Position numbers and translations under genes: made by a program | Shown here: piece after piece, positions 1-41,784 of the stretch | Position numbering within the stretch: position 1 is the first letter of the stretch | How the letters are laid out: each line of letters begins with the position of its first letter | From: Eutreptiella sp. 'Long Island Sound 2002' | Taxonomy: Eukaryota; Euglenozoa; Euglenophyceae; Eutreptiales; Eutreptiaceae | NCBI GenBank assembly: GCA_964036045.1 | Contig: OZ038381.1 | Coordinates: 161,638,283 to 161,702,282, forward strand | Length of the DNA: 64,000 bases | Reading direction: 5' to 3' | Notes under the pieces: model-generated | Databases searched by the model: none | Told to the model about the DNA's origin: nothing | Seen by the model: only the letters and a program-made list of their open reading frames with translations

Positions 1-1975
1 GGGCGTAGAGTCCACTGATCAGGTCTACCAGCCCCGCCGGCATTCGATAGTGGTGGAGGACCCGACGGAGGGTGAGCTGGGGAACGCTGTTAAAGGCCTT
101 GTTAAAATCAATGTAAAAATGGTAGGCCTGGGGGCTTCGGACGATTTCTGCTGTGACGTGAAAAAGGTGCTCCATGGTTCGGAAATTCGGCATGCCCCCG
201 TGTTGGCTGTGGTGCATGAGGGAATGATCTCTGATGAAGGTTTGGAGGGCGGAGGCGGCATGTCGGGCCACTAGTTTGTAGACAGTGTTTAAGAGGGCTA
301 TTGGGCGGTAGTTTGCGGGGTCGTGGGGGCATTTTTTCTTGTAGATCAAACATACTTGGGCGGTCGTCCTGTGGGGAGGCAAGGGCTCATGCAGGAAGCG
401 ATTTACCACCAGAAAGAAGAGCGTCTGCAGGTGGGGGGGGAGGACGGAGAGCAGGTAGGTGTTGGTGTGGTCGTCTCCTCCCGCCTTGCGCTGGTTAGCC
501 GAGTGGAGGATGTCGGTAAATTCTGACCATGTCATGTCCGGGATGTCCTGAGTTTCTGTGCCCGAAGGGCACTGGGGGGTGTGGCTCAGGAGGCGCTCTG
601 TGAAATCGTCGGGGGGGGTGTAGTCAGGCGAACCCCCCAAGTGGAGGAGCGTATCCGAAAATATCTTTGAAACCTCTTTGGTGTCTGTAGCAAGGGTTCC
701 GTCAGAGCGCCTGAGGGAAAATGGAGCCTGATCCGGGGGTTGGAGGTGTTTCTGGATGGCACTCTTGAGTTGGCGGCCCTGGACGATCGCTCTGTGTACC
801 GCGGTTCGGGCCGATTTCTGATTCGCCTTTTGCCATTCATCGAGGTAGTCATTGAGCTGCCTCATTTTTTTTCCAAAACGGGGGTGGGAGGCTGGGGGGA
901 GGGCATTGGCCAATTGGGTGAATTCTTTCTGAATTTTGGACGGGGCTGTCCCTCCCGCCGGGGTGGTAATCGAGTGGTAGGCCTCCGAGCACTCTCGGAG
1001 AATGGCGTCCACTATCGGGACCAGGTCAGAGGTCGGGACGTCAGGGAGGTGTTTGTTAAAGTCCTCACACCATTTCTCGGGGGGTTGCAGTCCCCCTTGA
1101 AGACGGAGCAGTTCCTGTTTCTTTAGCCTTCAGAAGCGTTTACGGGTGGGTGGGGGGGACTGTGTGGGTATGAGGGGTGAGTGCAGTTGTGCTGTGACAG
1201 GGTGGTGGTCGGTAGAGCAATCACCATAGAGAATTGAAGCGTCAGCAATTTTTTGGTCATGGAAGAGGCTCCTCGAAGCAAAGATGTAGTCCAATCTGTT
1301 CTTAGACGCCGGTCGGGTCCACCCCAGAGCAGTGCTGTGCATGTGACGGTACGTATCGATCCATGACGGGTTACTGCCCGATGTTTTGGAAGTGACCCAG
1401 GCCCATGGGTTGGAGTCGGCGTGCAAGGAGTCTAGATGGGGATTGCAGATGCAGTTGAAATCACCTCCCACCACATGGTAAGGGTATCGGGAAAGAAGAC
1501 GCTACAGGTTGACTTCAATCAGGGGGCGCCTGGTAATTGCGGGTGGGGGAGAGTAGAGAGAAGTGAGGAGTGTGGGGGGGGCGCCCGGGAGGGTTATTTC
1601 AACCGAGCACATGAGTCCATCGTCGTCTGAGTTCGGAACAAACTTTGTGTAGGGCCGCAAAGCCGAAGAGACCACAATGGCAGTGCCATTCTTTTTCTCT
1701 CTCTTGTTGATTTTGGTGAAAATTTTGCATTTTTCCCCCCCGTGGCTAAAGATGTGTGGGAGGCTGGGCTCTTCGTTCAGTTCCTGGAGGAGCAAGACAT
1801 GGTATCCTTTTTGTAGGTGGTGGAAAATGAAAGGGGTGGGGGGTTTCTTTTCCAGGTTGTGTGAAAGGATTTTGAGCGTGGGGGGCGGGGGGTTGTTGAG
1901 CTTTGCAGCTGGGCGCACATACCCCTTGCTTTGCCTCCAACTGGTCACGGGAGGGGGCTCAAGACCAAAGCAAGT
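1..1975 (-). pseudogene. LINE-A ORF2, left segment: APE endonuclease and reverse transcriptase (partial)
   Basis: Main part of a non-LTR retrotransposon ORF2, read right to left in one frame from 1975 to the window edge. Endonuclease motifs appear in order: SHNL and LLLQEL near 1900-1800, VVGGDFNC near 1470, RLDYIFAS near 1290, and STDHHP near 1215, together the catalytic set of an APE-type nuclease that nicks target DNA. The reverse transcriptase follows with LIYKK and NYRPIALLN near 340-290, then FYIDFNKAF near 115-90 (motif A with the catalytic Asp). The YADD box would lie beyond the left edge. Two in-frame stops break the frame: TAG at 1502-1504 and TGA at 1130-1132; I saw no frameshift. 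Its 5' start is cut off by the chromovirus and continues at 15165-15402. Certain as a LINE; the clade is not determined. Confidence 0.9.
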
Positions 1976-1980
1976 CAGGT
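1976..1980. repeat. Target site duplication, left copy (CAGGT)
   Basis: The five bases CAGGT directly precede the left LTR and recur directly after the right LTR at 15160-15164. Five bases is the usual duplication for Ty3/gypsy integrases. The duplication marks the point where the chromovirus entered LINE-A. Confidence 0.85.
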
Positions 1981-4323
1981 AAAGAAGGTCCCTACCAGGA
2001 CCGGCCCCCGCTGTGCCCCTTCCGCCTGTAACCCCTGCTGACTTGCTCCTGATCAACGATTGCATTTATCAAAATCCAGGGTTCCAAATCCAAAAATATA
2101 GAAAATACCATCCTCCTTCAACCCTGAACAGCAACCAGATCCCACAAATACAGCAATAATCCAATCCACACTGCGGGCTTCCGTTCAGCACACCGGTCGT
2201 CCCACGGTGGCGGGCATGTACAACAATTGCACCAAAGAGGAAAGCCCTGAAATTGGCAAATCAACACAAATAAAGCAAAGTTGGGGAAAGAGGTAAACCT
2301 ACACATTCACAGCCATAAACCCCTCATTCCCTGGACTCAAGACCTTTCCTTGACTCACCAACATATTGCCCTGAACCAGGTCAAATGAGATGGCTGAACG
2401 GCATGTGTCACAAGTCAATACACAAACCCCAAAAATGTGTTCACTCCCAAGCCTCTAAATCCTAGCCCAATAGGGGAGGTGGCGTGTCATGCCCTAGAGT
2501 GGCACTCAGGACCATGCCCTACCCTGACATGACCTTGGTTGGACTTGGAGTTGATTGGGCTTGGAGAACTGCCCCATGAAGATGACCTCACAACATGGCA
2601 AAATCAGGCAAATCACACCATTATGCCCAAAAGTCAATTATATACTCAAAAATGCATACGGCAAATATCCAATTGCTCCATGCATGTGTCAAACCGGAAG
2701 GTAAACTACAAGGGTGAGATAGACCAAAGGTCCATGCCCAAGAATATCCCATCATTAGCTCCGAAACCTCTCCGGTTATGTACATGGCATGCTTCACAAG
2801 TCAGCTCATGAGTTTGAGACCTAATTTTGTGAGGCCTCGTGTGCCAAGCCAAAGTAACCACGTGATCCGGCATATGGCGAGGTACAACACCGAAGCATAT
2901 GCCAACATATAAGCAACATACCATAGTTCAGGAATCTCTAGGCACTTTACTGTTAGCCGACCAGTTGAGCACATAAAACACAAAAATGAGCATAAAATGA
3001 GGTCAACAACATGCAAATATGTCCAAATACAAAGTTGTCATGATGGTATATCTCTATGCTCACCCATGATATCCGCTCATGGTTCAATACACAAATGATT
3101 GGAACCATTTGCCAACAATTCCCCCACTTGGATCCCCAATCGGGCGCATGGAGATACCTTCGCCACCCATATCTACATGCCCCATGAAAATGGGAGTGCG
3201 CTCATGGATCTCTTTGCCAAACATACCATGAGCAATACATACGCGGTAGACTTAGTCTAGCGCTTTGAATTCCACAATTGGGACATGGGCAAAGCCCTTG
3301 TCACGTGTGGCTCCCCATCTCTTCGGCCACACGAAGATATATAACATGGGCGTGAGCATATCGAAGCACATACCATGCATATAACATATACCCTCAAAAG
3401 TGGCTCCCACCATGGTATTCCATGCCCCTCCATGGACATAGCTTCACGTTAAAAATACGTGGGAACCCAAGGAAAGTATCTATGCAACCCCGACACTCAT
3501 GCGGTACACTCGAAAGTTGCAATAAAATATTCGGTTGCATGGTCCAAGAGTTATATATCACTTTCTACCCTCTTGACCATTATCCCTCGCTATACCGGGC
3601 ATGTGTACACACCAAAGGCGTTTGATGCTTCCTAAAATAAGTTGAGACTAAGGCGCTTGCAACCCAACCTTCATTATTCTCTTTCCTCACACTCGCGCGT
3701 AGATATGGCCCTTCAAAGTGGTCCCACGAATCACTTTTGTTTCCCTTATATCTCCAAGTCAAATGGGTGGCAAGTATAAGGGAAACCTGATTCGGGCATA
3801 GGGAAAAGAGTATGACCACTCGAAGAAGACCAAATCAAGTGCGGCGATGTCGAAGTCGAAAATCCGATTTCGACATCGCGAAAAATTTAGATTAAAATTT
3901 CGAGTGCTTGTTTAGAAAATTGCGGAAGCAACGAACCCTTTACAGATGAAATCTGACCCTTCATCGGAGTTTCCGCCAAAATATCTGGAAATAACAGTTA
4001 ACCAATCGGTTACCGCAAAATCGCGAGCCAACTGACAGTCGCCGATACATTGACCATCAGAACGAAAGGCGGAAAAATTACGGAAACATTATGATAAAAA
4101 AACCCTGTTGATTCCTGATATTCTGATATATAAATCTCCGCTGGCGGTGCCTCGGTACTGAATATGGCCGCTCATAGCCGGAATGGCCAAACCTATCACA
4201 CTATCACATCGGGTTAGGTCAGGTGGATGGGAGAGTATGATATCAGCCAATGGCGGCTTGCCGGCACATAGATACACACCCCAAGTGACCCCAAGATGGC
4301 CACGGGGGTCCGAACCGGCTTCA
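1981..4323 (-). repeat. 3' LTR of the chromovirus (left copy)
   Basis: 2,343 bp, same length as the right copy at 12817-15159 (offset 10,836). On the element strand it begins TGAAGCCGG and ends CCTTCTTT, so the 5' end is canonical TG but the 3' end is not CA. It abuts the purine tract at 4324-4333. An ATG at 2063-2065 in its last 85 bp reads out of the LTR into LINE-A and makes a 187-codon chimeric frame ending at 1502. Such a long LTR carries no recognisable gene; short reading frames inside it are not conserved proteins I know. Confidence 0.95.
3844..3879. promoter_or_regulatory. Perfect 11-bp inverted repeat inside the LTR
   Basis: GCGATGTCGAA at 3844-3854 pairs with TTCGACATCGC at 3869-3879 around a 14-base loop. 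The same structure is intact in the other LTR at 14680-14715 although the LTRs differ elsewhere. It could act in RNA 3' end formation or packaging; that is inference. Confidence 0.6.
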
Positions 4324-4333
4324 CCCCCCTTCT
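4324..4333 (-). promoter_or_regulatory. Polypurine tract of the chromovirus
   Basis: On the minus strand AGAAGGGGGG sits immediately before the 3' LTR start TGAAGCC. This is the expected position of the RNase H-resistant primer for plus-strand DNA synthesis, and it fixes the LTR boundary independently of the repeat comparison. Confidence 0.9.
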
Positions 4334-4716
4334 CAGAGCGTTGTCACCGCTCGGAAGTCATTGAAGAGAGGACGGGAGGACCCCAATGGGCTCCAATCCC
4401 CCCCTCCATGTCCCAAGGACACATGGAGGCCCCACACACGTCGTAGGCGTCCCCCATGCCCCAAGGGAGGGGTGAGGACACTGAAATTCGGTGCCCTACG
4501 CCATATCCGGTCTCCTCTTGATCTACAACATGGACCAAGGGGATCAAAGATAGAGAAATGTCGTCGGTCGACGTAAATAGGTATACCACAATGAAATATA
4601 TATGTGGAGATCGAGTGAAGGGGGTATATGGCCAAAGAAGGCCGAGAAATCCCCGGATGAACGCCCTCACCCGTCTCCTCAATCACAGAAACAAACAAGA
4701 TGCCAAGGGGGATCCA
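4334..4716 (-). other. Chromovirus 3' untranslated region
   Basis: About 380 bp between the end of the chromodomain frame (TAA at 4717-4719) and the polypurine tract. I see no conserved protein in any frame. Confidence 0.6.
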
Positions 4717-4881
4717 TTACGGTGCTACAGCAGCAACCAAATGGAACAACACGTCCTTGACATCCAAAGAAATATTCTTTTTCTTCAGGTACTCCATCCA
4801 GACCGTGGTGTACCTCGGCACAAAACTGCTCGGAGGCTCCCACGAATCCCTGGATGCGGCGAATCCCTTCCAACGGACTTT
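4717..4881 (-). pseudogene. Chromodomain at the C-terminus of the chromovirus polyprotein
   Basis: Directly after the integrase frame, beyond an in-frame TAG at 4882-4884, the same frame continues for 54 codons with KVRWKGF and then DSWEPPSSF, the chromodomain core (VKWKG then TWEP). The first strand of the domain (EKIL) lies just before the stop, so the stop falls inside the domain. Chromodomains at this place direct integration towards modified histones in chromoviruses. The aromatic cage is partly visible (W of RWKG, W of SWEP). The frame ends at TAA 4717-4719. The TAG may be a decayed CAG or a suppressed codon. Confidence 0.8.
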
Positions 4882-7500
4882 CTAAAGCCTACCCCCAGGC
4901 GTCCCCGGGTCCGGCTTGTCCGCCAGGATCTTCTCAGCGGTGAAGTCGTCCTCCTCACCCTCGTCCTCGGAGTCCACATCGCGGGCCGTGAACTCAAAGG
5001 TGACGGGACGTCCGCTGGGGTCTGGTGCTCGGGGACGAAGCTGGGTATGGTCGCGGTCCAGGATCTTGTTATCCCCCACACGAACCGCATACACATCCTG
5101 CCCGACCTTCCGCACGATTACCCCCGGCACATACCAAGATGCCTGCCGATGCCTGGACAGGACATCCTTGTGGTGCCGCTCCACCCACACGGTGTCTTGG
5201 AGAGCATACTTCTGGACCTTTCCCTTCTTGAAGTACTTGGCCCTCTTGTCATGCTCGTCCTGAAGTGCCTTGCACACCTTGGCCGCCGTGTTGTCAGCCT
5301 CAGCCATCATAGCGTTCGCATCCCGGGCCACTTTGCCATGGTTCAACCACGGGAGAGTGCGTGACACTCGATCTCGTAGGAACAGGATGCGATGGGGCGA
5401 CAGTCCAGTGGGTCCCGGAAGGTCGTGATACGCCTGGAGCACTCTCCACAGCGAGTTATACCAGTTCCGGCCCGGTTCGTCAATGTGCAGCTGGCGGAAC
5501 TTCTCGAACATCAGCCGCCCGGCCACCTCAGCACGGCCATTCGACCGGCTGTGGTACGCCACGGTCTTGGCGTGCCGAATCCCCATATGCTTGCACATCG
5601 TCTTGAACCACGTCCCCACGAACTGACTGCCCCGATCGCTGCAGATGACAGCCGGGACATCAAAAATCGTCAGCCAATGCCTGATCATGGCATTAGCGAC
5701 GGTCTTGGCCTGCAGCCCCACTCCATGCTTGTCCTTCTTGTCCTTCTTCTTGGACTTCTTGCGAGGGACCGCCACGATATACCCACTGTGCCTGTCCACC
5801 GCCAGGATGACACAGTCGTAGGTCTCTCCTTCCACGGTGACCTCAGGCATGGCGAATACATCCATGGCCACGGACCGCATAGGGGCCTCCGGTATAGCCG
5901 TATACACCGGGTTGCCCGCTGTGGAGTGGTTAGGGCTCTTCGTGGCCCGACACACGGCACAGTCGCTGCAGTACCTATCCAGGATGGCGTAGTACCCCGG
6001 AGGGAACTTGAAACGCCACTCCAGGTCCTGCTGCATCTTGTCTCGGCCAGGATGCATGAGCTGGGCGTTGTGCCAATGGTCAATGAGCTCCTCCACTCGG
6101 TTCTCGGGCACCAGCAGCTTGTCCTTGAGGAACAACTTGTCCCCATCCTCGGTCAAGCCCTCGGGCCATTCGTCGTCCGACGGGGCGCTCACGGCATTCC
6201 AGTACTTGCTCCAGTGCTCGGATGCCGCGTAGTCATCCGACCAGTCCTCTGTGAGCACCGACCTGACTAGCTCTACAGGGGCCACCATCCACTGCTCGAG
6301 GGTTTCCTCTCGAATAGCTTGGACGCGGGCACCCCGGAACTTGGCCAGGTCCGTACGATTTGCCATCACCACAAAGCACCTGACCCCCTCTTGCTCCATG
6401 GCCTTCTCCATCTCGATGATGCGCTTGGCCTCCTCGGTCTCCTCGGCGTCGCCATGGCTGGATATGTCCATCCACGCCTTGCCCGCGGGGTAGGCCCAGC
6501 GACTGAGGCAATCTGCCACAGTGTTGTCCTTCCCTGGGACGTACACGACGCTGAGGTCGAACTTGGCGAACGTCTCGTGCCATCGGGCCCTCCTAGCCGC
6601 TGGTCCTGAGGGGGCGTCGACATGCTCCTTGTGCCAGCGCTGTAGGGACTGGTGGTCCGTGCAAACCACCACCGGCTGCAGTCCGATGTGGCCAGACCAC
6701 TTCCTGAGCGCACATACAATGGAGTATGTCTCCTTCTCCCTCGTGGTCCATGTTCGGCGTTGGCCCTCGGCCAGGATCCTGCTCCAAAACGCCACGGGTA
6801 CATGTGACCCGTCGTTCCGGATCTGCTCGAGGACTGCCCCTACAGCATAGTCCGAGGCGTCCGTCCGTAGCACGAATCTCTCGTCCGGGTCAACCAGGAA
6901 CAGCCCCAACTGCCCCGGGAGTCGCTCCTTCAGGCGGTTGAACGCATCTTCGGCCTCAGGGGTCCAGGCAAGCTTCTTCTTGCTCCCCTTCCGGCCATCG
7001 AACTTGCCCACCTGCAGCATCTTGTGCAGCGGCCCCGAGAGTTCTGCATACATCTGGACATAGCCCGAAAAGTAATTGCAGAACCCCATGAAGAACCGGA
7101 GTTCGCTGATGGTCTGGGGCTTCTCCCAGTGGTGCAGGGACGCCAGCTTCCCAGGCATGGGACGGCGTTGCCCGTGACCAACCACGTGACCCGCCAAATC
7201 CACTTCTTTCACGAAGAGTGAGGCTTTGGTTGGCTTGCACACCATGTTGTGCTTGTCCAACTCGCTGAGCACTCGGCGCAGATCCTTCTCATGCGCGTTG
7301 ATGAGCTCGTCCTCAGTCATGTTCTCCGTGCCGGACCCGATGATGATGTCATCCACGAAGGGATCGGCACAGTCCCGGACAGGACCGAGTAGGTCCTCCA
7401 TCATGCGCTGGAAAGCGGCGTTGCCATTCTTGGCGCCCATAGGCACCACTTTCCACTGCATGGGCCCCAGCGGCGTTGACATCGCTGTGCAGGGCCTGGA
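4882..7500 (-). pseudogene. Chromovirus Pol, C-terminal part: reverse transcriptase palm, RNase H and integrase
   Basis: Open for 866 codons from 7482. Residues 1-50 hold the second half of the reverse transcriptase, with TPLG near the start and the catalytic FVDDIII at 42-48. RNase H follows: D208 in LRTDAS, E251 in REKETYS and D276 in VCTDHQSL. The integrase starts with an HHCC zinc finger near 465-510 (H and H in DHWHNAQLMHPG, then CSDCAVC), then the DDE core with D in AMDVF, D in CSDRGSQF and E in RAEVAGR, then a C-terminal domain with VWVERHHKD. All catalytic residues seen are present. It is separated from the upstream half of the reverse transcriptase by a single-base shift near 7500, so no active enzyme is made from this copy. 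Confidence 0.93.
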
Positions 7501-9722
7501 GTCCGGGTTGTAGCGGCATCTGGTGATAGCCGTGTTTCAGGTCTAACACCGTGAAAATCCGCTTTTTCTGTTGTTTTTGGGAGATGGAGTCGATCAGGGG
7601 AAGCGAGTACGAGTCGTGCTCGGTCTGCTCGTTCAAACCTCTGTAATCAACCACCAACCTCCACTCGCCCTTCTCCTTCTTGGGCACGATGAAGGCTGGG
7701 CTGGCCCACTCACTGTCGGAGGGTTCGATCCATCCCCGCTCAATGAACTCGTCCAACAGCTTCTTCATGGCCTCGGCCCGATCGCCCTGAAGTTGGTACT
7801 CCCGATGACGATAGATCTTCGGGTTCGGCTTCAGCTTGATCTTTGCTGTACCAAACCTCCCACGATCTGGAGGGTTCTTGTTGGCGACGCCACCGAATAG
7901 CCGCAGATAGGCATTGATCAGCCTCTCCTTCAGCTCGGCGACCTTCGGGTTCTCCTGGTCCTCTTCAGCCGCTTGTTTCGGTATAGATACAACCGACCGC
8001 ACTGCGGTATAGGCCTCTTCTGGGTCCGATTCCGACTTCTCCTCGTCCGATATGCCGTCTTCATCGTCGTGGGGAGCTCTTCCCACCGATAATCTTCGGA
8101 ATTTTGCGGCCTCGGGCTGGTGACTGTCGCTATCGGCACCCATTCTTGGAAAATCCCATGTTGGTGGGTCCGACCCAACCGGACCATCGTATTGGTCCGC
8201 GATGTGATCCATGACCCTCGCCACGAACTTGTCTTTCTCGTACTTGCCGGTGACCAACATCTTGTCATCCCACCAATGCGGAGATGTGACCATGGCCCGC
8301 CTCTTCTTGGCTGCCACACGGTCGTGCATCCCCATCCGCATGTAGTTGACGACGTCGTGGATCTCGGCGTGGGACAGGACGTCAATGCCATCAATTGGCT
8401 GATCCGTCCCCTCCTTGGGCTCAAACATGACCTTCATGGGCACCGCCTCCACCCTACGGATGAATGCTTCATCACCCGTGGGCTGGGCTTGCGCCCCATC
8501 CACCAGGAAAGCCTTGGTACCCCACGCTTGACCCGGGGAGGGCATTGATACACCCTTGGCGTCGATGAACAACTCCTCTTCTGGCCCGAATGACATCTCG
8601 TTCAGGGTGATGGAGTCCAGCGTCGACTTGAGACCCTCCAGCGGACATGGGGTGGATCCTATGCCGGTTATGACCAGGATCCCTGTCGCCCTATCCGCGA
8701 TGATCTTCTCCACCGTACGTCTGGTATTGTCCAGGGAGCCATGCCAATACATGGGTCCCCACTCCTTCAAACCCCAATGCCGGTGCCAGGCCGAGTCTCC
8801 TCGATGCCAGTGCCGCCTACACTTCCTCAGAAGTGGGGAATCCGGGGAAGCAAAGACGTCCGTCTCGGGCGCTTCGGCTCCCAGCGTCTGGATCATCCTG
8901 GTATACACCTGCGGCGCCATTCCATATCCCGTGAGCTGAACTCCACGGTCTCCTCTGGACTTGGCACCCACAGCTTGCACCGCTTGGACGATCTGATCCT
9001 CTTCCTCAGCATTCAATTGGGATGATCCGCATGCATAGTCCGTGGACAGCCATGTGAGGCATTCATCATCCTCCCGAACCAGCGTTGCGCGATGGGGAAG
9101 GGCTCCAATGGCGTTTGCCACCATGAAGTCATACCCCTTGATCATATCCCAGTCAGTAATGTCGGCCACATAGAAGTTCCCGGATAGAGTGCTTCTCTTC
9201 GCCAGATCAGGGCGGTTCAAGCGCTCATGCTCCCAGAATTCCATACTGATAGTGGCCACATGGGTGCCCCCACCCATGATCTCTCCATTGGCGACCTTCA
9301 GGCGGACCGGTCTCCGGCTGGGCTGCAGAAGTTCCTCCTTGAACAACCCTCTCCGGACCAGGCTCACCTGGGCACCCGTATCCACCAACACATCCACCAC
9401 CTTCTCATCTCGTCCGCACCGCACTCGCACTTTCAAGTGCAACTGCCGCTCGTCACCATGAGGCGTATGGACGACTCTCACGGCATGCAACTCTAGCACG
9501 TCCGGGTGCTTCAGGACTTCAAGGGTATGGTCACGGATGGTGTAGATCTTGGGCTGGTCCTGCCCATCCACGGGGCTCTCCGTGGTTGCTCCTTCCTTCT
9601 TGCCATGTCCCGTACCCACATGTACTTCCCTTGGCAGGGCGCTCCAGGGGTTGGGAGTGGCGAAACTCAGTGGTTTTGGCTCTTCTGGAGCCTTCTTCGG
9701 CACCCGATGTGCCTCTGATTCC
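7500..9722 (-). pseudogene. Chromovirus Pol, N-terminal part: protease, methyltransferase-like domain, reverse transcriptase fingers
   Basis: The frame is open from just after the TAG at 9723-9725 to about 7500. The aspartic protease active site VLVDTGAQVSL is at about residue 105-115 from the first Met at 9703. Residues 281-385 resemble the Dam-like module known from DIRS-type elements (start TDVFASPDSP, then W-rich WHRHWG and a DRATGILVITG strand); its expected NPPW-type motif reads YWHGSLDN, so it is probably not catalytic. An acidic linker leads to reverse transcriptase with ERGWIEPSDSEWASP, WRLVVDYRGLN and FTVLDLKHGYHQMPL (motif A). An extra base in a CCC run near 7500 then shifts the frame by one. 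Protease and polymerase calls are firm; the middle domain is tentative. Confidence 0.88.
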
Positions 9723-9784
9723 TAAGGGATTCCACTGATTTTCTGAGGAGAGACCTCCGAGGTCCCACTCCCGTGGGGGCTCCT

Positions 9785-10402
9785 CTAGACTTGACTTCCC
9801 GCAGCCCCTTCCGGCTGCGATCCGCCAGGACTTTGTCCACCACGTTGCTGGGCTTTGAGTTCCTCCAACGTCCTCAACATGTCCTCAGCAACCTCCTCGA
9901 TCAACCTCACTCGTTGGTCTTGGCCAGGTCCACCACCATAGCCTCTTCCTCCGCCTTTCCCTTGGCCTTTGCCTTGGCCTTTTCCCCCGTCTCCGCCCTT
10001 CGCCTTCCAATCGGAAATTCGCTGCTCCTTGGGCTTCTTCTCGGGGTGGGCGGCGAAGTAGGCCTTCTTGTCCGCCTCATAGACCTTGCACTGACGGTGG
10101 TCGTGTGCATGGTTGTCACCCTTGCCATAACAGACCCAGCACCCGTCGTGCTGAGACCTGTACTCCCGGAACGAGAGCGGTGGATTCCCGATCCTCCTTG
10201 GCTCTCTGTTCTTCTTGGGTCCCATCCGGCTCCATCTGGACCGATCCTGCCCATGGTCCCCCACGTTGTGTGCCACAAACGCGAAGAAATGGGCCTCCTC
10301 GTGATCCTCCCGGGACCCGGTCCAGTGGTCTTGGCCACTTCCACTACCATCCTCCGCGGAGTTGGCCGTGTCCTCCTGGATCTTCCGATGATGTCGGTCT
10401 TC
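9785..10402 (-). pseudogene. Chromovirus nucleocapsid-like zinc knuckle region
   Basis: Same frame as Gag and as the protease, between TGA 10403-10405 and TAG 9785-9787. A single cysteine/histidine cluster, CWVC followed by several His and a final C 14 residues on, lies near 10140-10090 and resembles a retroviral zinc knuckle with wider than usual spacing. A Gly/Lys-rich stretch (GKGQGKGQGKGGGRG) follows, as expected for RNA binding. About 20 codons after TAG 9785 a second TAG (9723) precedes the protease. The first TAG could be a genuine Gag stop read through at low rate, but two stops so close suggest decay. Confidence 0.75.
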
Positions 10403-10429
10403 TCAGTGGCCTCGTTGTCCATGACCATG

Positions 10430-12901
10430 TCAATCCTGCACGTGGGCCTCGTTCTTCGCATTGAGCTTCAACTCCACCGTGATGTACTTCACGATCTCGT
10501 CCAGGCTCATGCGGGCGAAGATGACCTGCATCCTCAGCGGCTCCCCGCGCCTCCACTCCACGTTGTTGAGGCGCAGCAACCTTTGCCCCATGGAGTCTCC
10601 AAACACCTCCACGTACACGGCGTTCTTCAGTCCCAACATCCGGTTGGGCTCGCCCAGGTTCATCCTGAAGAACTCCATGATACCCGCATGGGTATCCTCC
10701 GCCGCCATGATCCTCACCGCCACGCGCTTCTTCGCTCTCTTCTTCTCCTCGTCCTCCACTCTCCTCTTCCAGTTGCCGGGGAGGACGTCCTTCAGCAAGT
10801 GGCGATTCTCGCTGGCCTCGTTCCAGTCCTCCACCAGCTTGAGGCATCTGCGGTACTTCCGCAGATACCGGTTCCACTCCCGGACCCGCAACTCACCGCG
10901 GTCCAGCTGCAGCGGGATGGACCACAAGTCCTCCAGCTTCTGGTTCGGAGCGTCCACCCGCTCCTCATCCTCCAACCACTGGAGGCAGGCCTGCTCCGTA
11001 CAGATCAGTCCTTCCCGGATCTGATCCCGCAGCTCCTCCTTCAGGTCCTGCGCCAGCCGGTGTGGGAATGTCCGGCATACCCACTTGTCCCGCGGCGCTC
11101 CCCGCATCTCCCCGACGACCTCCTCGGCAAAGTCCTCCCAATCCAGGATGAAGTCATCCAGGTTGGAGGGGTTGCCATAGTAGTAGGGGATTTTGATTCC
11201 CCTGAGGTCGTCAATCCTGATGGCGTCTCCGACGTCCCCAGCCACCACTCCACCGAGACGGATACCACCTGTGGCCGGGGGGTGTGAGTACACTCCCCGT
11301 ACATCCCTCTCCTCCATGAAGTGCGGTCCAGTTGGGCCTGAACCCATGGGGTTTGGAATGCGGGAAGGACTTGCTGTGTCGGCCGTCCATATCCCCGTAT
11401 TGGGGTCCTTCGCCCACAGGTTTCCGCCTGGATGACCTCGACCATGTCCTTCGGCGCTTCCCATGGTTCGCCCCTGCATGGTCTGGCTCTGGATCTCCTC
11501 TTCCGCATAAACTGCATAGGCAGTCGTAGTGGGCGGTGTATCCTGGGTGGCATGGGACATCTGTACCGTCAGGCTCCTCGGGTCCGTGGTTGCGTGCCCT
11601 TCCCGCATGGACCCAGCCGGCGCTGTTTGTTCCCCGAGCATTGTGGATTCGCTGAACATGGGAACAAAAGGCAGCGCACCCGGGTCAACACGCGGAGGCG
11701 CGTATGGTGCCTCTGCAGGGCCGCCCATGGGATTCTCCATGGCGTTCCTGAGGGTCTTAACCCGCTCCGCCAGCTCTACCGCGGCCGGCTTTGCCGGGAG
11801 CTCCGGACCCGAGGCGAGGGGCTTTAGCTCCTCTAGCCTTTTCAGGCGTCCCGACATGTCCTTCACCAGGTGGAGGAGGCTGTCCACCACTCGCTGCTGC
11901 TTCTCCAGGGCCAGCTCCAGATTCTCCCGGTACCGGTCCCGTTCCGCTCGCAGCTCCTCCATGTCCTTCTCCGCGGCCGACTGGTCATCCAGGATCCCGG
12001 CGACGTCCTCCTCTAGACCGTCCTTCGCGTTGTCCAGGCGGTTGAGACGATGCACGATGGCGTCCATCCCCATCTTTGGGTACTTGCCCATGAGGAAGGA
12101 CACGTGCTCGCAGTGGCACACAGCGTGCCTTCCGCCTGATCGAGCGCATCCCGCGGTTCCCGGCGCCTCAGACTCATCGCCCATGGGCGTATCGCCTATG
12201 GCGTCCGTCTCTGGTCCCGTGTGCCGGGGCACAGGTGCCGTCCGGGCCCTGGCTGGCCTCTCCAAGCCCTCGGCGTCGTGCTTCAGGGCGGGCTTGGGGG
12301 CCGTATGCGCCCTGGCGATCGGTCTGGCCGTCTCCTCCGACTCCGAGGGTTGCTCATAGGCTGTCCGATAGCCCTCGGAGTGCCCCTCGGACTCCAACAG
12401 CCTGACCGGGCTAGGGTCCGTATCCATAGCCCCGGCGTCCCTTGCCGCGGACTTGGGTGACCCGCGCTTCCGGTAGCGCCGGGCCCGTCCTCCACTGCTG
12501 CCTGAATGGCAGGCCTCCTCAGAGTCCTCCGTGGCGGAGCGGAGGTTGCATGCCTTTTGGCAGCGACGCTCGCACATGGAGACCAGGTCCTCCATGTCAA
12601 GTCCTCCTCTTCCCGAATGTCGTACTTCTCTTCGCGCTTCAACTTCCGGAGTTCGCCATGCTCTTGAACGTCTCGGCTCTTCTATGGCTCCAATCTCCGG
12701 CGTGGTCTCCACCGAGTCCACAATACGCACCCGGGGCGTACTTGGGCAGGGCTCATAAGGGCCCAAGTCCCCGGGTCGGCGGTAGGTAGGGGCAGCAGGT
12801 AAGCCTCTGCTACCATAAAGAAGGTTCCTACCAGGACCGGCCCCCGCTGTGCCCCTTCCGCCTGTAACCCCTGCTGACTTGCTCCAGATCAACGATTGCA
12901 T
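10430..12901 (-). pseudogene. Chromovirus Gag
   Basis: An 823-codon frame ending at TGA 10430-10432. From the 5' side: a charged, low-complexity N-terminus, a predicted coiled coil (heptad-rich stretch with NRLDNAKDGLEEDVAG and many Glu/Arg, about residues 280-370), and a capsid-like retrotransposon Gag region in the last 250 residues (IPYYYGNPSNLDDFILDWEDF onwards). The most upstream ATG, 12899-12901, lies inside the 5' LTR and the frame stays open across the primer binding site; a more usual start would be the Met near 12595. Gag packages element RNA in virus-like particles. A second TGA at 10403 follows nine codons after the first; both fit CGA to TGA change. Confidence 0.85.
12803..12815 (-). 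promoter_or_regulatory. Primer binding site (initiator tRNA-Met-like)
   Basis: On the minus strand TGGTAGCAGAGGC begins two bases after the 5' LTR. It matches the common plant and fungal site TGGTATCAGAGC, complementary to the 3' end of initiator tRNA-Met, with one mismatch in the first eleven bases. It confirms the element's orientation. Confidence 0.88.
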
Positions 12902-15159
12902 TTATCAAAATCCAGGGTTCCAAATCCAAAAATATAGAAAGTACTATCCTCCTTCAACCCTGAACAGCAACCAGAACCCACAAATACAGCAATAATCCAA
13001 TCCACACTGCGGGCTTCCGTTCAGCACACCGGTCGTCCCACGGTGGCGGGCATGTACAAGAATTGCACCAAAGAGGAAAGCCCTGAAATTGGCATATGAA
13101 CACAAATAAAGCAAAGTTGGGGAAAGAGATAAACCTACACATTCACAGCCATAAACCCCTCATTCCCTGGACTCAAGACCTTTCCTTGACTCACCAACAT
13201 ATTGCCCTGAACCAGGTCAAATGAGATGGCTGAATGGCATGTGTCACAAGTCAATACACAAACCCCAAAAATGTGTTCACTCCCAAGCCTCTAAATCCTA
13301 GCCCAATAGGGGAGGTGGCGTGTCATGGCCTAGAGTGGCACTCAGGACCATGCCCTACCCTGACATAACCTTGGTTGGACTTGGAGTAGATTGGGCTTGG
13401 AGAACTGCCCCATGAAGATGACCTCACAACATGGCAAAATCAGGCAAATCACACCATTATGCCCAAAAGTCAAATATTTTCTCAAAAATGCATACGGCAA
13501 ATATCCAAATGCTCCATGCATGTGTCAAACCGAAAGGTAATATACAAGGGTGATATAGACCAAAGGTCCATGCCCAAGAATATCCCATCATTGGCTCCGA
13601 AACCTCTCCGGTTATGTACATGGCATGCTTCACAAGTCAGCTCATGAGTTTGAGACCTAATTTTGTGAGGCCTCGTGTGCCAAGCCAGAGTGACCACGTG
13701 ATCCGGCATATGGTGAGGTGCAACACCGAAGCATATGCCAACATATAAGCAACATACCATAGTTCAGGAATCTCTAGGCACTTTACTGTTAGCCGACCAG
13801 TTGAGCACATAAAACACAAAAATGAGCATAAAATGAGGTCAACAACATGCAAATATGTCCAAATACAAAGTTGTCATGATAGTATATATCTATGCTCACC
13901 CATGATATCCGCTCATGGTTCAATACACAAATGATTGGAACCATTTGCGAACAATTCCCCCACTTGGATCCCCAATCGGGCGCATGGAGATACCTTCGCC
14001 ACCCATATCCACATGCCCCATGAAAATGGGAGTGCGCTCATGGATCTCTTTGCCAAACATACCATGAGCAATACATACGCGGTAGACTTAGTCTAGCGCT
14101 TTGAATTCCACAATTGGGACATGGGCAAAGCCCTTGTCACGTGTGGCTCCCCATCTCTTCGGCCACACAAAGATATATAACATGGGCTTGAGCATATCGA
14201 AGCACATACCATGCATATAACATATACCCTCAAAAGTGGCTCCCACCATGGTATGCCATGCCCCTCCATGGACATAGCTTCACGTTAAAAATACGTGGGA
14301 ACCCAAGGAAAGTATCTATGCAACCCCCACACTCATGCGGTACACTCGAAAGTCGCAATAAAATATTCGGTTGCACGGTCCAAGAGTTATATATCACTTT
14401 CTACCCTCTTGACCATTATCCCTCGCTATACCGGGCATGTGTACACACCAAAGGCGTTTGATGCTTCCTAAAATAAGTTGAGACTAAGGCGCTTGCAACC
14501 CAACCTTCATTATTCTCTTTCCTCACACTCACGCGTAGATATGGCCCTTCAAAGTGGTCCCACGATTCACTTTTGTTTCCCTTATATCTCCAAGTCAAAT
14601 GGGTGGCAAGTATAAGGGAAACCTGATTCGGGCATAGGGAAAAGAGTATGACCACTCGAAGAAGACCAAATCAAGTGCGGCGATGTCGAAGTCGAAAATC
14701 CGATTTCGACATCGCGAAAAATTCAGATTAAAATTTCGAGTGCTTGTTTAGAAAATTGCGGAAGCAACGAACCCTTTACAGATGAAATCTGACCCTTCAT
14801 CGGAGTTTCCGCCAAAATATCTGGAAATAACAGTTAACCAATCGGTTACCGCAAAATCGCGAGCCAACTGACAGTCGCCGATACATTAACCATCAGAACG
14901 AAAGGCGGAAAAGTTACGGAGACATTATGATAAAAAAACCCTGTTGATTCCTGATATTCTGATATATAAATCTCCGCTGGCGGCGCCTCGGTACTGAATA
15001 TGGCCGCTCATAGCCGGAATGGCCAAACCTATCACACTATCACATCGGGTTAGGTCAGGTGGATGGGAGAGTATGATATCAGCCAATGGCGGCTTGCCGG
15101 CACATAGATACACACCCCAAGTGACCCCAAGATGGCCACGGGGGTCCGAACCGGCTTCA
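12817..15159 (-). repeat. 5' LTR of the chromovirus (right copy)
   Basis: 2,343 bp, no length difference from the left LTR and about 43 substitutions by eye. On the element strand it begins TGAAGCC directly at the target duplication. The only TATA-like sequence I favour, at 14961-14970, is about 190 bp from the LTR start, which would imply a short U3 and more than 2 kb of R-U5 leader. The internal 11-bp inverted repeat lies at 14680-14715. Confidence 0.95.
14961..14970 (-). promoter_or_regulatory. Candidate TATA box of the 5' LTR
   Basis: TTTATATATC on the minus strand, 190-200 bp inside the 5' LTR and also present in the left LTR. The position is plausible for a U3 promoter. No start site can be seen, so this is a suggestion only. 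Confidence 0.35.
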
Positions 15160-15164
15160 CAGGT
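15160..15164. repeat. Target site duplication, right copy (CAGGT)
   Basis: Matches 1976-1980. Removing the element plus one copy joins the LINE-A frame at 15165 to 1980-1976 in phase. Confidence 0.85.
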
Positions 15165-15402
15165 CGGGCAAGCGTGATGGTCGCGGGTTTTTAGGAGTGG
15201 GGCGGGGGCGGAGGGGTTCAGAGGATGGAGGGGGGGTGCTGAAACGATGCGCGCTGGGTTGAGGGACGCCGAGGCGTTGAAGCAGTTCGCTAAGCTTGCC
15301 CGCTGCCGTCTTGAGTCTCGGCGTCGGGCTCGGCGTCCAGAGCACACTGCACGTTGCGAAGGATGACCGCCACTCGCCGGTCCCGAGGGACTTCGGCCCC
15401 AT
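15165..15402 (-). pseudogene. LINE-A ORF2, N-terminal segment
   Basis: An ATG at 15400-15402 opens a frame that runs to the chromovirus target site and, across the empty site, stays in phase with the endonuclease frame at 1975 (codon first bases shift from 0 to 1 modulo 3, as the 13,184-bp offset requires). It overlaps the last 113 bases of ORF1 in the +1 frame. The segment is Pro/Arg-rich and has no known domain. In the present DNA the LTR adds a TGA directly after the target duplication. The overlap suggests reinitiation or frameshifting between ORF1 and ORF2. Confidence 0.75.
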
Positions 15403-17998
15403 CCACCAAATCGCTCATGCGGTAGGGCACCTGATGCTGCCATTGTTCTCGAAGTTCTCCCGTGACTTGGAGGGCTGAGTATCGTGGTACCCGCACACTC
15501 ACCACCGGGCCATTTCCCTTACGGAACTCCATGGTGGTAGCCCCCACGAGTGAAATCGAGGTGATAGTGTTGCCTAGGTCATCGATGTCCTTATGCCATC
15601 CTATGCCCACCACAGGTTCATAGTCGTTCACGCTGACTTGGTTCGGCTGTACCGCTAGCAGGGGGATGTCCTCCAAGTCTTTAGCGTGCATGAGGTTGTC
15701 GATGAGATTCATGAGCTCCGTGGGGAGCTCCTCCGCTCGTTCGAGGGTGTGGGAGGCATCCACGTACTTCCATCCGTAGTGCAGCTTGCCTCTTCGGGTC
15801 TCTCTCTCCCATTCCTGCTTCTCGAGGTAGGCCATTAGGGTGGTCTCCATAGTCATGTCGATGACGTCCTCGATAATGCGTAAGCCCGGGAGGTCTTCCT
15901 CCGTGAGGTCCTCCGGTTGTCGATCTTCTTGTCGCGGCGGGCGGCGAGGCGGGCGTAGGAGTGGTTGATGCTCCTTGTAGTTGGCGATGTAGTCCTTGAG
16001 GAAGGCCCCCGCGCCGACGTTCAGGCCCGCTCGCACTCGTGCTTCCGGCGGGCGATCCTCCTCAGCCACCGAGGGGTCGAGTTGTAGGAGTGTGTCAACC
16101 TGTAGATAAGGTTGGGACGGGTGAAAGGAAATGGGGCCCATAGCAAAACCCGTGGCAATTTGAGCGGATTGGAGCTTCTCATAGGTGACGGAGTAGAAGC
16201 TTATAGGAGGATTTTCGGATCTCGAGTGGAATTCAAACCGCGTGAATGGGCCTAGGAGACCCGCCGCACATTGAATGTCAAAAAGTGAGGTCGTGTTGGG
16301 CGCTTGGACATCCACTTCGTTTGGCTCTCCCTGACTAGGCATCGGCGGCGGAATAGAGACCATGGTCGGCGGAGATTTAGGGTGAGCATCCTGCTTGCCT
16401 CCTTTTCCAAATGCATTGAAGGTGATCAACGCTCCGTCCTTTGAGGTACACATTACCATCGCTCCATTATTGTGGAGGATAGAGGCAAAGGTAGAGAGAG
16501 GCGAGCGCCCTTCGTCACTTGGGGTATTGCTAAGGTCCAATCGGACTATCACGCTATCCCGGCTCTTGATTGACGTGCCCATGACACGGGTGCGCCCTCG
16601 TCCCCCAATCATGTGGCCCATGAGGGTGTTCATGACCTCGGTAGGTGTAAATTCTCCCTTGTGGCGGTTTCTCTCGTTGCGTGACGGGTTCACAAAAAAA
16701 GAGTGTTGGTCAACCATTTTTGCCACTTCAATCACATAGAATCGCCCTCGTAAGAAATCTCCATGCTCCAAAGCCACGGACATAAGTTCGTTTGCAAGAG
16801 CCGGAGCCATGGTATATTCGTACCAGTAATAATTTGGGTGTGGTGCACGAAGGGCTTCTCCGTTCTCAAAATAATATTTGCAATTGGTAGTAGTCGCCGC
16901 GCCCTCAAAGTCCGGTGCAAGCGTATTGTTCAACCATTTGTAGAAGTCCCGCACGTTGCCTAGCTCCGCTTTCTTTCGGGTGTTGGTGTCTTCTTGGTCA
17001 CTCGGGAGCTCTCGTTGATCAATGATCTCTCGTAGCACGTCAAATCGAAGTAGGACATGCGCTTGCTCTATATCCAAGTTGGTACTTTGATGTACGAAGC
17101 GACGTAGGCTCGAGGAGTGGTCAACCGTGACGCTCGGGTGCTTAGACGGAGCATACCATGATTGGGAATGAAGTCGGTAGGCGATGTATGGCACGGCGAG
17201 AGCATTCCCCAAAATGAATTGGGCGTTCTCAACGTTTTGGTTGCCGGGGATCCACCATTGCTTTGCATCATTGAAGCCTAAGCGTTGCGTAATAAAGGGG
17301 CGTAAGGGAGTGAGAAGCAAACGGGGGTCAACCAACAAGCAATTTTCTGCATTGCAATTTTTAATGGGCGCCGGTAACATGAACCATCCGTCGAACTCTT
17401 CGTTGCGGGAGCGGGCAAGTTGAAGGGCGTGTCCTATAGACGCCGCCCAATCCGTCACGGTCTCTACGGTGGTTCCCAAGTCGTGATCCACGTAGTTGTA
17501 CGGCACCGGGCACACTAGGAGGGTCTTGTGGATGTGCAAGATATCATAGACGTGCGCCAAGTCTTCGTGTGCACAATTTGAGTAGAAGCCCGAGCTTTTC
17601 AGGATAGTGGTGTTGAGTTTAGTGAAGGAGTTCTTTTTGTCGGAGACGTTGGACTCATGGTTCCATTGGCAAGTGTCCCATAATTTTCGCAACGTGGCAC
17701 ACGCGTGCATTCGCTTTTTGGCATCATACGCCATGGTGCCTTGCACTTTGATGCTTCCTGTTCGAGATATGAGGAGTTCGGCGTTGCTCTCAACGGAAGC
17801 CCATCGTTGTAGGGCCGTAGGCGCTGCTTGGTCAATATGTGAGTATTGTCCAAAGGTGAGCGGAGAACCGCTAGGCAAGCGTGGATGAAGTTTTTTATTT
17901 TTTGGCAAAGTGGGATGTTTGGAGTCGTCAATATCCATAGAATTTTGCGTTTGAGAAGCATTGGACCAACCAAGGAGCGTATATGGGCTTGGGAACAT
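15290..17998 (-). CDS. LINE-A ORF1 with C-terminal AlkB-like 2-oxoglutarate/Fe(II) dioxygenase domain
   Basis: A 902-codon intact frame from ATG 17996-17998 to TAG 15290-15292; the frame is open about 54 codons further upstream but without ATG. The last 200 residues read as an AlkB fold: LRIIEDVIDM and HYGWKYVDAS, then QVSVNDYEPVVGIGWHKD with the metal pair H802 and D804, SISLVGATTMEFRKG, the third metal ligand H855 in WQHQVPYR, and R875 and R881 in RRVAVILR, which bind 2-oxoglutarate. AlkB enzymes remove methyl groups from nucleic acids; a role in protecting or processing element RNA is inference. The first 700 residues match no family I know and show no CCHC knuckle. Its 3' end overlaps ORF2 of the same LINE. 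It could instead be a host gene next to the LINE, but the overlap with the ORF2 frame argues against this. Confidence 0.8.
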   Translation of the reverse strand: MFPSPYTLLGWSNASQTQNSMDIDDSKHPTLPKNKKLHPRLPSGSPLTFGQYSHIDQAAPTALQRWASVESNAELLISRTGSIKVQGTMAYDAKKRMHACATLRKLWDTCQWNHESNVSDKKNSFTKLNTTILKSSGFYSNCAHEDLAHVYDILHIHKTLLVCPVPYNYVDHDLGTTVETVTDWAASIGHALQLARSRNEEFDGWFMLPAPIKNCNAENCLLVDPRLLLTPLRPFITQRLGFNDAKQWWIPGNQNVENAQFILGNALAVPYIAYRLHSQSWYAPSKHPSVTVDHSSSLRRFVHQSTNLDIEQAHVLLRFDVLREIIDQRELPSDQEDTNTRKKAELGNVRDFYKWLNNTLAPDFEGAATTTNCKYYFENGEALRAPHPNYYWYEYTMAPALANELMSVALEHGDFLRGRFYVIEVAKMVDQHSFFVNPSRNERNRHKGEFTPTEVMNTLMGHMIGGRGRTRVMGTSIKSRDSVIVRLDLSNTPSDEGRSPLSTFASILHNNGAMVMCTSKDGALITFNAFGKGGKQDAHPKSPPTMVSIPPPMPSQGEPNEVDVQAPNTTSLFDIQCAAGLLGPFTRFEFHSRSENPPISFYSVTYEKLQSAQIATGFAMGPISFHPSQPYLQVDTLLQLDPSVAEEDRPPEARVRAGLNVGAGAFLKDYIANYKEHQPLLRPPRRPPRQEDRQPEDLTEEDLPGLRIIEDVIDMTMETTLMAYLEKQEWERETRRGKLHYGWKYVDASHTLERAEELPTELMNLIDNLMHAKDLEDIPLLAVQPNQVSVNDYEPVVGIGWHKDIDDLGNTITSISLVGATTMEFRKGNGPVVSVRVPRYSALQVTGELREQWQHQVPYRMSDLVDGAEVPRDRRVAVILRNVQCALDAEPDAETQDGSGQA

Positions 17999-18170
17999 GG
18001 TAGCGTGAAAATAGGCGCGTTCACGTCGGAATTGCGAAATGGGACTAGAGGTTAGCAAAGACGAGAAATGTCGGCGACGGCGGTGAAATAGCGTCGGTGG
18101 CACGACCAATGCCAACCAAGGTAGATGCTCAAATTTCGGTGAAATGCGCCCAAATGCCACTAGTCCTGGA

Positions 18171-18989
18171 CGGCTTATTTTTTGACTAGTGGTGCGACAT
18201 TGTCCATCTGAAGGGGCAATCGAAAAAAAATAGACACTCAGAAAGGGATATATATATATATATGGAGATCATATATGTACTATCCGGGGAAGACAAGTGA
18301 TATGCCCCGGATGTAGAGGCAAGCAAAGAGGAAGAAAACGCCAACTCAACATACTTCTACACGTACTTGGACGTCAAGTACGTGAGATTGCCCATTTTTT
18401 GGAAAACACTCAAAATGAATAACCCTTTGGGCCTATTAAGTTGGGATCCCTTGGCCTCATCCTATGACTATGGGGGGCAAAACCTCATACACAGTGCCTA
18501 TGAGGCACGTTAGTTCGTCCTTGGGCGCTTGAACGCTCGTAACCCTTGTTGTTTCACTTGGGGGCTCAAAGCGCCTTCGGCCGCCCAGATTTTCTGAGAA
18601 AAATCTGGGACACAATGCGTTTTATCAAGGAAAAAATTGCGGATCACTCGAAGAGTGTTTCAGTCTTAACTTCCGAAAAAATCGTATTATAGAATCTTCT
18701 ATCGCAGTCCACGGAACGGACGACGACAGGCGGCGCGACTGCGGCGTCTTCACAACATTCAGTAGTTAAATAAGAAGTCGGGATGTTTACCGATTTCACG
18801 GAAAATTTGATAATGACAATGAAATTATGATAGATCCGCATCGATTTGACAGATCGGGAAGGTTAGGGATCAGGATCGGTCTCGTTCCGGTTCCCACAGA
18901 ACAGGCAATAACATGCTCCCACTGACGGACCCGCTCACGGACGGCGTGACGAAATGACGGTAAAGGGCACATGGCTCCGGGCCTCCGGG
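18171..18989. other. Non-coding flank of LINE-A
   Basis: AT-rich sequence with a (TA)n microsatellite near 18247-18262. It may include the LINE-A 5' untranslated region. No protein frame, RNA gene or clear element end is visible. Confidence 0.5.
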
Positions 18990-38118: not shown

Positions 38119-38195
38119 AGTGCTGTGCCTGGGAGAGCGAGACGGAGGGAGGCGGCGGGGAAGGGGGCAAAGGGTAGTGTTTGCGAACGGAATCT

Positions 38196-38310
38196 GAGGG
38201 ACAGGGCTGAGACGTGGGCTGGGTCTGGGTGAAGATGTCAGGGCAGAACAGGGGGCAGGGCTGAGATGCGGGCTGGGTCTGGGTGAAGATGGCAGAGCAG
38301 AACAGGGGGC
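38196..38310 (-). repeat. Tandem duplication in the LINE-B leader
   Basis: Two units of about 58 bp, each containing GGGCTGGGTCTGGGTGAAGA and GCAGAACAGGGGGCAG. Repeated 5' units are common in LINE promoters. Confidence 0.6.
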
Positions 38311-38330
38311 AGGAGGTGCGAGGCGTCGTT

Positions 38331-41592: not shown

Positions 41593-41594
41593 CT

Positions 41595-41784
41595 GAGTCC
41601 CTAACCCCAACTCGAGGGGCCACGCAAAAAAGCGTGGATTGTGAGTCCCTAACCCCAACTCGAGGGGCCACGCAACAAAGCGTGGATTGTGAGTCCCTAA
41701 CCCCAACTCAAGGGGCCACGCAAAAAAGCGTGGATTGTGAGTCCCTAACCCCAACTCGAGGGGCCACACAACAAAGCGTGGATT
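41595..41784. repeat. 48-bp minisatellite, array A (4 copies)
   Basis: Period 48 bp: GAGTCCCTAACCCCAACT then CGAGGGGCCACGC, a six-base A-rich spacer and GCGTGGATT. CCACGC and GCGTGG form a perfect 6-bp stem in most copies. The same unit builds array B at 55849-56262. Confidence 0.9.

Follow-up and report, generated by a model that had tools for sequence, protein, structure and literature searches.

Long interspersed nuclear elements (LINEs) of the I, R1 and Tad-like types carry a second open reading frame (ORF2) with the architecture endonuclease (EN), reverse transcriptase (RT) and RNase H, and the ORF1 proteins of LINEs bind or act on element RNA and package the template. In plant RNA viruses, AlkB dioxygenase domains sit in the replicase polyprotein. 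Dinoflagellates contain retrocopies of host genes that carry relic spliced leaders (SLs) and derive from reverse-transcribed, trans-spliced mRNA. The RNA viruses reported to encode AlkB belong to the Alphaflexiviridae, Betaflexiviridae, and Closteroviridae, and the AlkB of an orchid Ty3/Gypsy element is reported to remove N6-methyladenosine (m6A) from single-stranded RNA in vitro (PMC9289625). Dinoflagellate and charophyte retrotransposons have been reported to carry a DNA methyltransferase, DNMT (PMC5890265). Among the matches listed in a search of open-access titles and abstract openings, with subscription papers and Repbase lying outside the search, the orchid Gypsy AlkB (PMC9289625) was the only retrotransposon case and none was non-LTR (LTR, long terminal repeat). 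Here we describe LINE-A, a non-LTR retrotransposon of the euglenid Eutreptiella sp. 'Long Island Sound 2002', found in a stretch of 64,000 nucleotides (the window; contig OZ038381.1 of assembly GCA_964036045.1, positions 161,638,283 to 161,702,282). Its ORF1 protein (ORF1p) ends in an AlkB-type domain, and its copies begin with the spliced leader. The parts of the element on which this description rests are as follows, in window coordinates.

18221..18245, minus strand: spliced leader CTTTCTGAGTGTCTATTTTTTTTCG at the LINE 5' end, with the first three leader bases missing or changed here; identified from published leaders and seven SL-RNA-like genes.
17999..18220, minus strand: LINE 5' untranslated region, in which the ORF1 frame is open without an in-frame ATG.
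15290..17998, minus strand: ORF1, 902 codons plus stop; identified from the frame, Pfam, the genome copies and the motif residues.
16079..17998, minus strand: N-terminal ~640 residues of ORF1p, under purifying selection, without a Pfam, NCBIfam or PHROGs match.
15293..15901, minus strand: AlkB-type 2-oxoglutarate (2OG)-Fe(II) dioxygenase domain with C-terminal tail, ORF1p residues ~700 to 902; identified from Pfam, PDB, profile and motifs.

The original prediction, made from the letters of the window alone, had placed a 902-codon frame at 15290..17998 and named an AlkB signature at its end. The frame was recovered as described, running on the minus strand (a detail that the prediction had not given, as it had not given the spliced leader or the host lineage) from an ATG at 17998 to a stop at 15290-15292 and remaining open further upstream to 18268; read on the plus strand, the same stretch contained 28 stops. 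The last ~200 residues of ORF1p matched Pfam 2OG-FeII_Oxy_2 (PF13532) with an E value of 2.3e-12 and 48 bits, above the curated cut-off of 31.2, and the predicted signature (HxD, distal H, RxxxxxR) was complete in the window copy as H802-K-D804, H855, and R875-x5-R881. The metal ligands H802, D804, and H855 were unchanged in all 30 loci examined, while R875 was kept in 27 and R881 in 24 of 29 loci. A phmmer search of the PDB returned ALKBH8 (3thp) as the nearest solved structure, with an E value of 2.5e-12. When a profile of eight rows (six LINE proteins and two distant relatives) was used instead, ALKBH8 was matched at 9.3e-25 and P8A3.02c, which we take to be a Schizosaccharomyces pombe protein, at 1.3e-13, while the matches to chains named DNA N6-methyl adenine demethylase began at 2.8e-8. 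These profile matches support a predicted double-stranded beta-helix fold for the domain. AlphaFold models built from shallow alignments had a mean predicted local distance difference test score (pLDDT) of 40.5 for the AlkB part and 28.5 for the N-terminal part, too low for either model to be of use.

Outside the AlkB domain, ORF1 matched nothing in Pfam up to an E value of 1, and hence no zinc knuckle, RNA recognition motif (RRM), or transposase_22 profile; in NCBIfam and PHROGs the whole of ORF1, even its AlkB domain, was without a match. ALKBH8 proteins have an RRM before and a methyltransferase after their AlkB domain; neither of these ALKBH8-subfamily domains had a Pfam match in ORF1, and the likeness between ALKBH8 and ORF1p is confined to the AlkB domain. 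A tree was built from five LINE proteins and 27 AlkB relatives out of a further 109; in it, all LINE proteins fell on one long isolated branch. Among the relatives listed, those with more than 70% identity were located on ENA contigs and on one JGI metagenome contig of 1951 bases (P0003, 97%); P0004, P0006, and P0012 are loci of the LINE-A genome itself (L068, L069, and L067, respectively; L numbers are our labels for loci). A viral origin was considered and rejected, as no relatives were found in viral contigs or phages.

We searched the genome (2.28 Gb in 2205 contigs) with ORF1, and this gave 53 rows from the best 50 of 2547 first-look candidates. In the best 50 rows, 46, including the window's own, reached at least residue 899 with 81 to 100% identity and lay on many chromosomes; two of these 46 sit on a contig duplicating a third. 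Thus, with 45 other rows among the first 50 extending to residue 899 or beyond, the frame and its AlkB end are beyond chance. All of the 29 other loci examined (30 with the window) lacked the LTR element that interrupts the window copy, and in each of them ORF1-AlkB ran directly into ORF2, as the original prediction would have it for an AlkB domain forming the C-terminal part of a non-LTR retrotransposon ORF1; no LINE copy among them was without the frame, and copies with the two reading frames adjoining, which that prediction had proposed looking for, were found throughout. Three loci (L010, L013, and L026) had further gaps or breaks beyond the position of the LTR element. The alignment started within the same 7 bases in 27 of the 29, and two copies that were read through measured about 8.16 kb each.

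Target site duplications (TSDs) were sought in 22 of the 29 other loci, leaving out L008, L010, L013, L021, L022, L023, and L026. The 3' end, CTACGTGC followed in most copies by a short A run, was located in 19 of the 22, and 18 of these 19 had a TSD measuring 13 bp or longer, as expected of target-primed insertion, although some TSDs were imperfect by one or a few mismatches. The remaining copy, L015, had a 3' end and no TSD that could be found, and L003, L024, and L028 had no recognizable 3' end at the expected place. Extra bases stood between TSD and leader in L007 and L009, the flank itself was repetitive in L014 and L029, and L011 and L016 have common flanks and were counted as one insertion. 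The tree of copies was comb-like with tips mostly of 1 to 2%, which fits one evolving active lineage. The dispersed copies, the junction of ORF1-AlkB with ORF2, and the TSDs show that the frame belongs to a family of LINEs rather than to the host's own genes. LINE-A is a multicopy and young family and, as judged from its young copies with TSDs and leader, appears to have been active recently and to spread by retrotransposition.

Some individual copies had unusual surroundings. A copy at C22:38613170 (L005, L033) was flanked by an unusually long direct repeat of ~117 bp or more, 117 bp being the flank length compared. L015 is nested in a second LINE-A copy, whose ORF1 can be read in its 5' flank. 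In L068 (positions 1927-3278), the leader and the ORF1 N-terminal region of a divergent copy are inverted relative to the remainder of that copy, like a twin-priming inversion.

Downstream of ORF1, the window copy is interrupted, and its features are the following.

15290..15402, minus strand: ORF1/ORF2 overlap of 113 nt, ORF2 in the +1 frame, counted from the first ORF2 ATG.
15161..15414, minus strand: 5' piece of ORF2, open as far as the LTR element.
1980..15160, minus strand: LTR retrotransposon within ORF2, foreign to the LINE, with LTRs at 12816-15160 and 1980-4324; matches to protease, RT, RNase H and integrase.
1..1979, minus strand: remaining ORF2 in the window, with EN and the start of RT, interrupted by in-frame stop codons (1502-1504, 1130-1132), running past the window edge.

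ORF2 lies in the +1 frame relative to ORF1, and the 113-base overlap given in the original prediction is exact when measured up to the ORF1 stop from the first ORF2 ATG (15402). Ribosomes probably enter ORF2 in this overlap, either by a +1 frameshift or by reinitiation. The ORF2 pieces in the window matched RT with an E value of 7.5e-9 and EN weakly, below the cut-off (E value of 0.0035). In L032, one of the two copies read through and free of the LTR element, EN was above the cut-off (Exo_endo_phos, E value of 4.8e-6, 26.9 bits versus 24.5), as were RVT_1 and RNase H, matched at 8.5e-25 and 2.5e-6, respectively. The best PDB matches of the ORF2 RT included R2-type and LINE-1 ORF2 proteins. 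An LTR retrotransposon inside ORF2 had been implied by the original prediction and was seen here as paired LTRs of 2345 bp with 98.2% identity, breaking ORF2 at 15160. The order in which protease, RT, RNase H, and integrase are matched along it suggests a Ty3/gypsy element, the protease and integrase-core matches falling just under the Pfam cut-offs. With this element inside ORF2 and two in-frame stops in the remainder (TAG at 1502-1504 and TGA at 1130-1132), the window's own LINE copy is dead.

We compared ORF1 between copies to examine selection, using as divergent references L067, L068, and L069, for which the synonymous divergence (dS) in the AlkB part was 0.81 to 0.96. The ratio of nonsynonymous to synonymous divergence (dN/dS) against these three loci was 0.172, 0.080, and 0.113 for AlkB residues 700-864 and 0.147, 0.114, and 0.102 for residues 1-640. 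Among 28 young copies (378 pairs), dN/dS was 0.23 in the AlkB part and 0.24 in the N-terminal part. The ratio of nonsynonymous to synonymous changes (N/S) among variants common to at least 4 copies was 0.14 for AlkB and 0.11 for the N-terminal part, and among singleton variants it was 0.37 and 0.40, respectively. The copies in this set were those with the best protein scores, with L021 and L022 omitted (duplicated contig) and stop codons skipped; because they were picked by protein score, the young-family and singleton ratios are biased low, and the divergent-copy comparisons are the better evidence of selection. Purifying selection acts on the AlkB domain as it does on the remainder of ORF1.

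The 5' end of LINE-A is the spliced leader of the host. Full copies start with (T/A)CACTTTCTGAGTGTCTATTTTTTTTCG. The Eutreptiella leader, of 28 nt, is reported to match those of Euglena gracilis and Phacus (PMC3621762), the E. gracilis sequence is given in a further report (PMC6242988), and the LINE 5' sequence is identical to the leader in these two sources. This sequence marks the host as a euglenid and not as a fungus or a dinoflagellate. The leader headed 28 of the 30 loci; the other two (L008 and L023) began 14 to 38 nt later. Exact matches of the leader followed by GT numbered 1217 in the genome, and seven of the twelve such loci that were fetched (L055 to L061) had a common SL-RNA-like sequence after the leader. 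Euglena has linked 5S and SL RNA genes, and a 5S rRNA was found beside L055, the one SL-RNA-like locus scanned for neighbors. The leader at the 5' end of the copies means that the LINE template was a trans-spliced mRNA; the sequence of the copies thus indicates that the template of LINE-A transposition is a processed, trans-spliced mRNA.

Other leader sequences in the genome were noted. A region at G000 C2:22678-1731225 contains dozens of leader+GT matches at recurring spacings and is perhaps a large SL RNA array. L062 to L065 represent a second leader-headed repeat family, in which the leader is followed by GTGTCTTTTTGTCCATGC... and which apparently consists of other SL-headed retrocopies; no 5S rRNA was found in L063 to L065 when these were scanned. 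A second LINE-like, GC-rich region of the window (33663-38352, minus strand), with an EN match at 37102-38118, had no spliced leader on its 5' side at up to 5 edits. Two tandem arrays with a similar 48-bp unit also lie in the window (41594-41784 and 55849-56262).

We consider it somewhat probable that LINE-A, as an AlkB-bearing, SL-headed euglenid LINE, uses the AlkB domain of ORF1p to demethylate its own mRNA in cis. ORF1p would coat the element's own mRNA, and its AlkB domain, as an active Fe(II)/2OG dioxygenase, would take methyl groups off this RNA (of the m6A, 1-methyladenosine [m1A], 3-methylcytidine [m3C], or 3-methyluridine [m3U] type). This demethylation would shield the element RNA from host recognition and decay or would clear lesions so that RT copies to the 5' end, and ORF2 would be translated via the +1 frameshift or reinitiation in the overlap. 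ORF1p probably brings an active demethylase into the element ribonucleoprotein, and the function that the original prediction had proposed, demethylation of the element's own RNA or a countering of methylation, is now backed by purifying selection and is plausible; in both statements the substrate is the part that we infer. In favor of this reading stand the AlkB identity of the domain, its junction with ORF2 in all 29 other copies, the EN, RT, and RNase H of L032, the TSDs, the leader, the unchanged metal ligands, the low dN/dS, and the comb-like tree, with the m6A-removing AlkB of the orchid Ty3/Gypsy element as a precedent. Several observations weigh against demethylation in cis. The nearest solved relative, ALKBH8, is a tRNA wobble hydroxylase and not a demethylase. 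Of the 2OG-motif arginines, R881 was missing from 5 and R875 from 2 of the 29 copies, and residues 866-902, which hold both arginines and overlap ORF2, were less constrained than the rest (dN/dS of 0.43 in young pairs and 0.34 versus L069, undefined for L067 and L068). Singleton changes too had N/S values below 1 (0.37 to 0.40), an effect of choosing copies by protein score. A frameshift breaks ORF2 in each of the two copies read through, and stop codons break it in the window copy, so that none of these three copies had both reading frames intact. A study of mammalian cells (PMC7873242) reports that LINE-1 is suppressed by ALKBH5, an m6A eraser, and aided by the writer, and promotion of LINE-1 by m6A is also cited in the orchid report (PMC9289625). 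Removing m6A therefore need not help a LINE, and a simple escape story need not hold.

The same evidence bears on what else the domain might do. It might act on DNA, clearing the target site or new cDNA of N6-methyladenine (6mA) or alkylation damage, or element DNA of host silencing marks, for which TET/JBP-type dioxygenases in fungal DNA transposons offer a parallel. The profile does match chains deposited as DNA N6-methyl adenine demethylase (E value of 2.8e-8); however, ALKBH8 was the best match by many orders of magnitude (9.3e-25), and LINE ORF1 proteins generally act on element RNA, so we regard a DNA substrate as unlikely. The resemblance to ALKBH8 could instead mean that the fold has been retained for binding RNA or protein, or for ALKBH8-like hydroxylation of tRNA or mRNA bases, with no demethylation. 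Motifs do not reveal substrate specificity, and the loss of the arginine motif in some copies would agree with such a role, but catalysis is favored by the metal ligands, intact at every one of the 30 loci, and by a constraint on residues 700-864 that is no weaker than on the N-terminal part, which leaves this explanation improbable. Finally, the AlkB frame could be a host gene or a one-off fusion carried by chance outside any active element, as the dead window copy, with its two ORF2 stops and inserted LTR element, might suggest. The frame is not a single-copy gene: its copies are dispersed over many chromosomes, are flanked by TSDs, and start at a shared 5' end, and even copies that have diverged in the AlkB part at a dS of about 0.81 to 0.96, with low dN/dS, have the domain in common. 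Neither condition that the original prediction had set as refuting it, LINE copies lacking the frame or a lone single-copy AlkB gene, is borne out. The genome copies rule out a host gene or chance fusion, and we give this explanation a next to negligible probability.

Demethylation of the element's own mRNA, the reading that we prefer, has a more specific form in which the first base of the leader is informative. The leader began with A-C-A-C in all seven SL-RNA-like genes read. Exact genome-wide patterns for the LINE heads (54 in all) gave T as the first base in 36 (longer anchor) and A in 17, C in 1, and G in 0 (shorter anchor); two of the 17 A-type heads lie on a contig duplicating a third, and the tree of copies contains two A-type copies (L014 and L020). 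Among the 19 copies with a 3' end, the first base was T, lying outside the TSD, in 10 (9 independent), A in 2, and C in 1; it was ambiguous in 5, where the TSD has a terminal T or runs into the leader. L015 had no TSD. The T-first copies include L007, in which the TSD does not abut the leader. A T for A at leader position 1 fits a poorly copied cap-adjacent A, either misread or followed by a stop one base short and an untemplated base. In the laboratory, RNA can be treated with AlkB before reverse transcription, and the following would be a natural counterpart of that practice. The trypanosome leader is reported to bear a cap 4 with N6,N6,2'-O-trimethyladenosine at position 1 and m3U at position 4 (PMC11417388), and a 2017 paper states that, to its author's knowledge, the type 4 cap is found on kinetoplastid SL RNAs only (PMC5491325). 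A cap-4-like leader in this euglenid would block or mislead RT at the 5' end; AlkB would strip N-methyl groups from the template, RT would copy through body lesions up to the cap, and the frequent A-to-T change at leader position 1 would be a fossil of one base still poorly copied. That hypermethylation of the trans-spliced mRNA template is the reason for the AlkB of LINE-A, with AlkB erasing N-methyl groups so that RT reaches the cap, is in our judgment a doubtful, rather long-shot proposal. The chances are about evenly balanced that T at position 1 is an ordinary non-templated addition after an early stop or the product of a T-starting variant SL RNA gene. Non-LTR RTs are reported to be able to add non-templated nucleotides (PMC8857657), and the SL-RNA-like genes read number only seven; yet all seven begin with A, the first bases (T 36, A 17, C 1, G 0) have a non-random spread, and if RT were blocked at nucleotide 1 and then added a non-templated base, this too would indicate that nucleotide 1 is hard to copy. 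If the cap proposal is true, genomic LINE copies are a record of cap chemistry, and the first-base signature would be a possible route to infer euglenid cap modification from genome sequence alone.

Compared with known systems, LINE-A resembles EN-RT-RNase H LINEs in architecture, both having two overlapping ORFs, TSDs, and a short A-rich 3' end, but it differs from them in having AlkB in an ORF1 without zinc knuckle, RRM, or transposase_22 and a spliced leader as its 5' end. Dinoflagellate retrocopies with relic leaders are host genes, whereas in LINE-A the element itself is leader-headed (28 of 30 loci), and such a template raises the question of how new LINE copies get transcribed. Like LINE-A, the plant RNA viruses are mobile RNA-based genomes that encode AlkB, with a proposed role in RNA repair or demethylation; unlike it, they are positive-strand viruses without reverse transcription. 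The DNMT retrotransposons likewise represent the capture of a methylation-editing enzyme by a retroelement, but a cytosine methyltransferase is a writer and not an eraser. The Ty3/Gypsy (Ogre/Tat) elements of Phalaenopsis orchids are also retrotransposons bearing an AlkB dioxygenase, reported with intact metal and 2OG residues; however, the orchid element is of the LTR type with a separate, ALKBH5-type ORF (PMC9289625), whereas here the domain is the ORF1 C terminus of a euglenid non-LTR element and is nearest to ALKBH8. Methyl erasers, so far captured by RNA viruses and a single LTR retrotransposon lineage, thus also occur in LINEs, and there in ORF1, and LINE-A makes it testable whether intracellular reverse transcription is limited by RNA modification.

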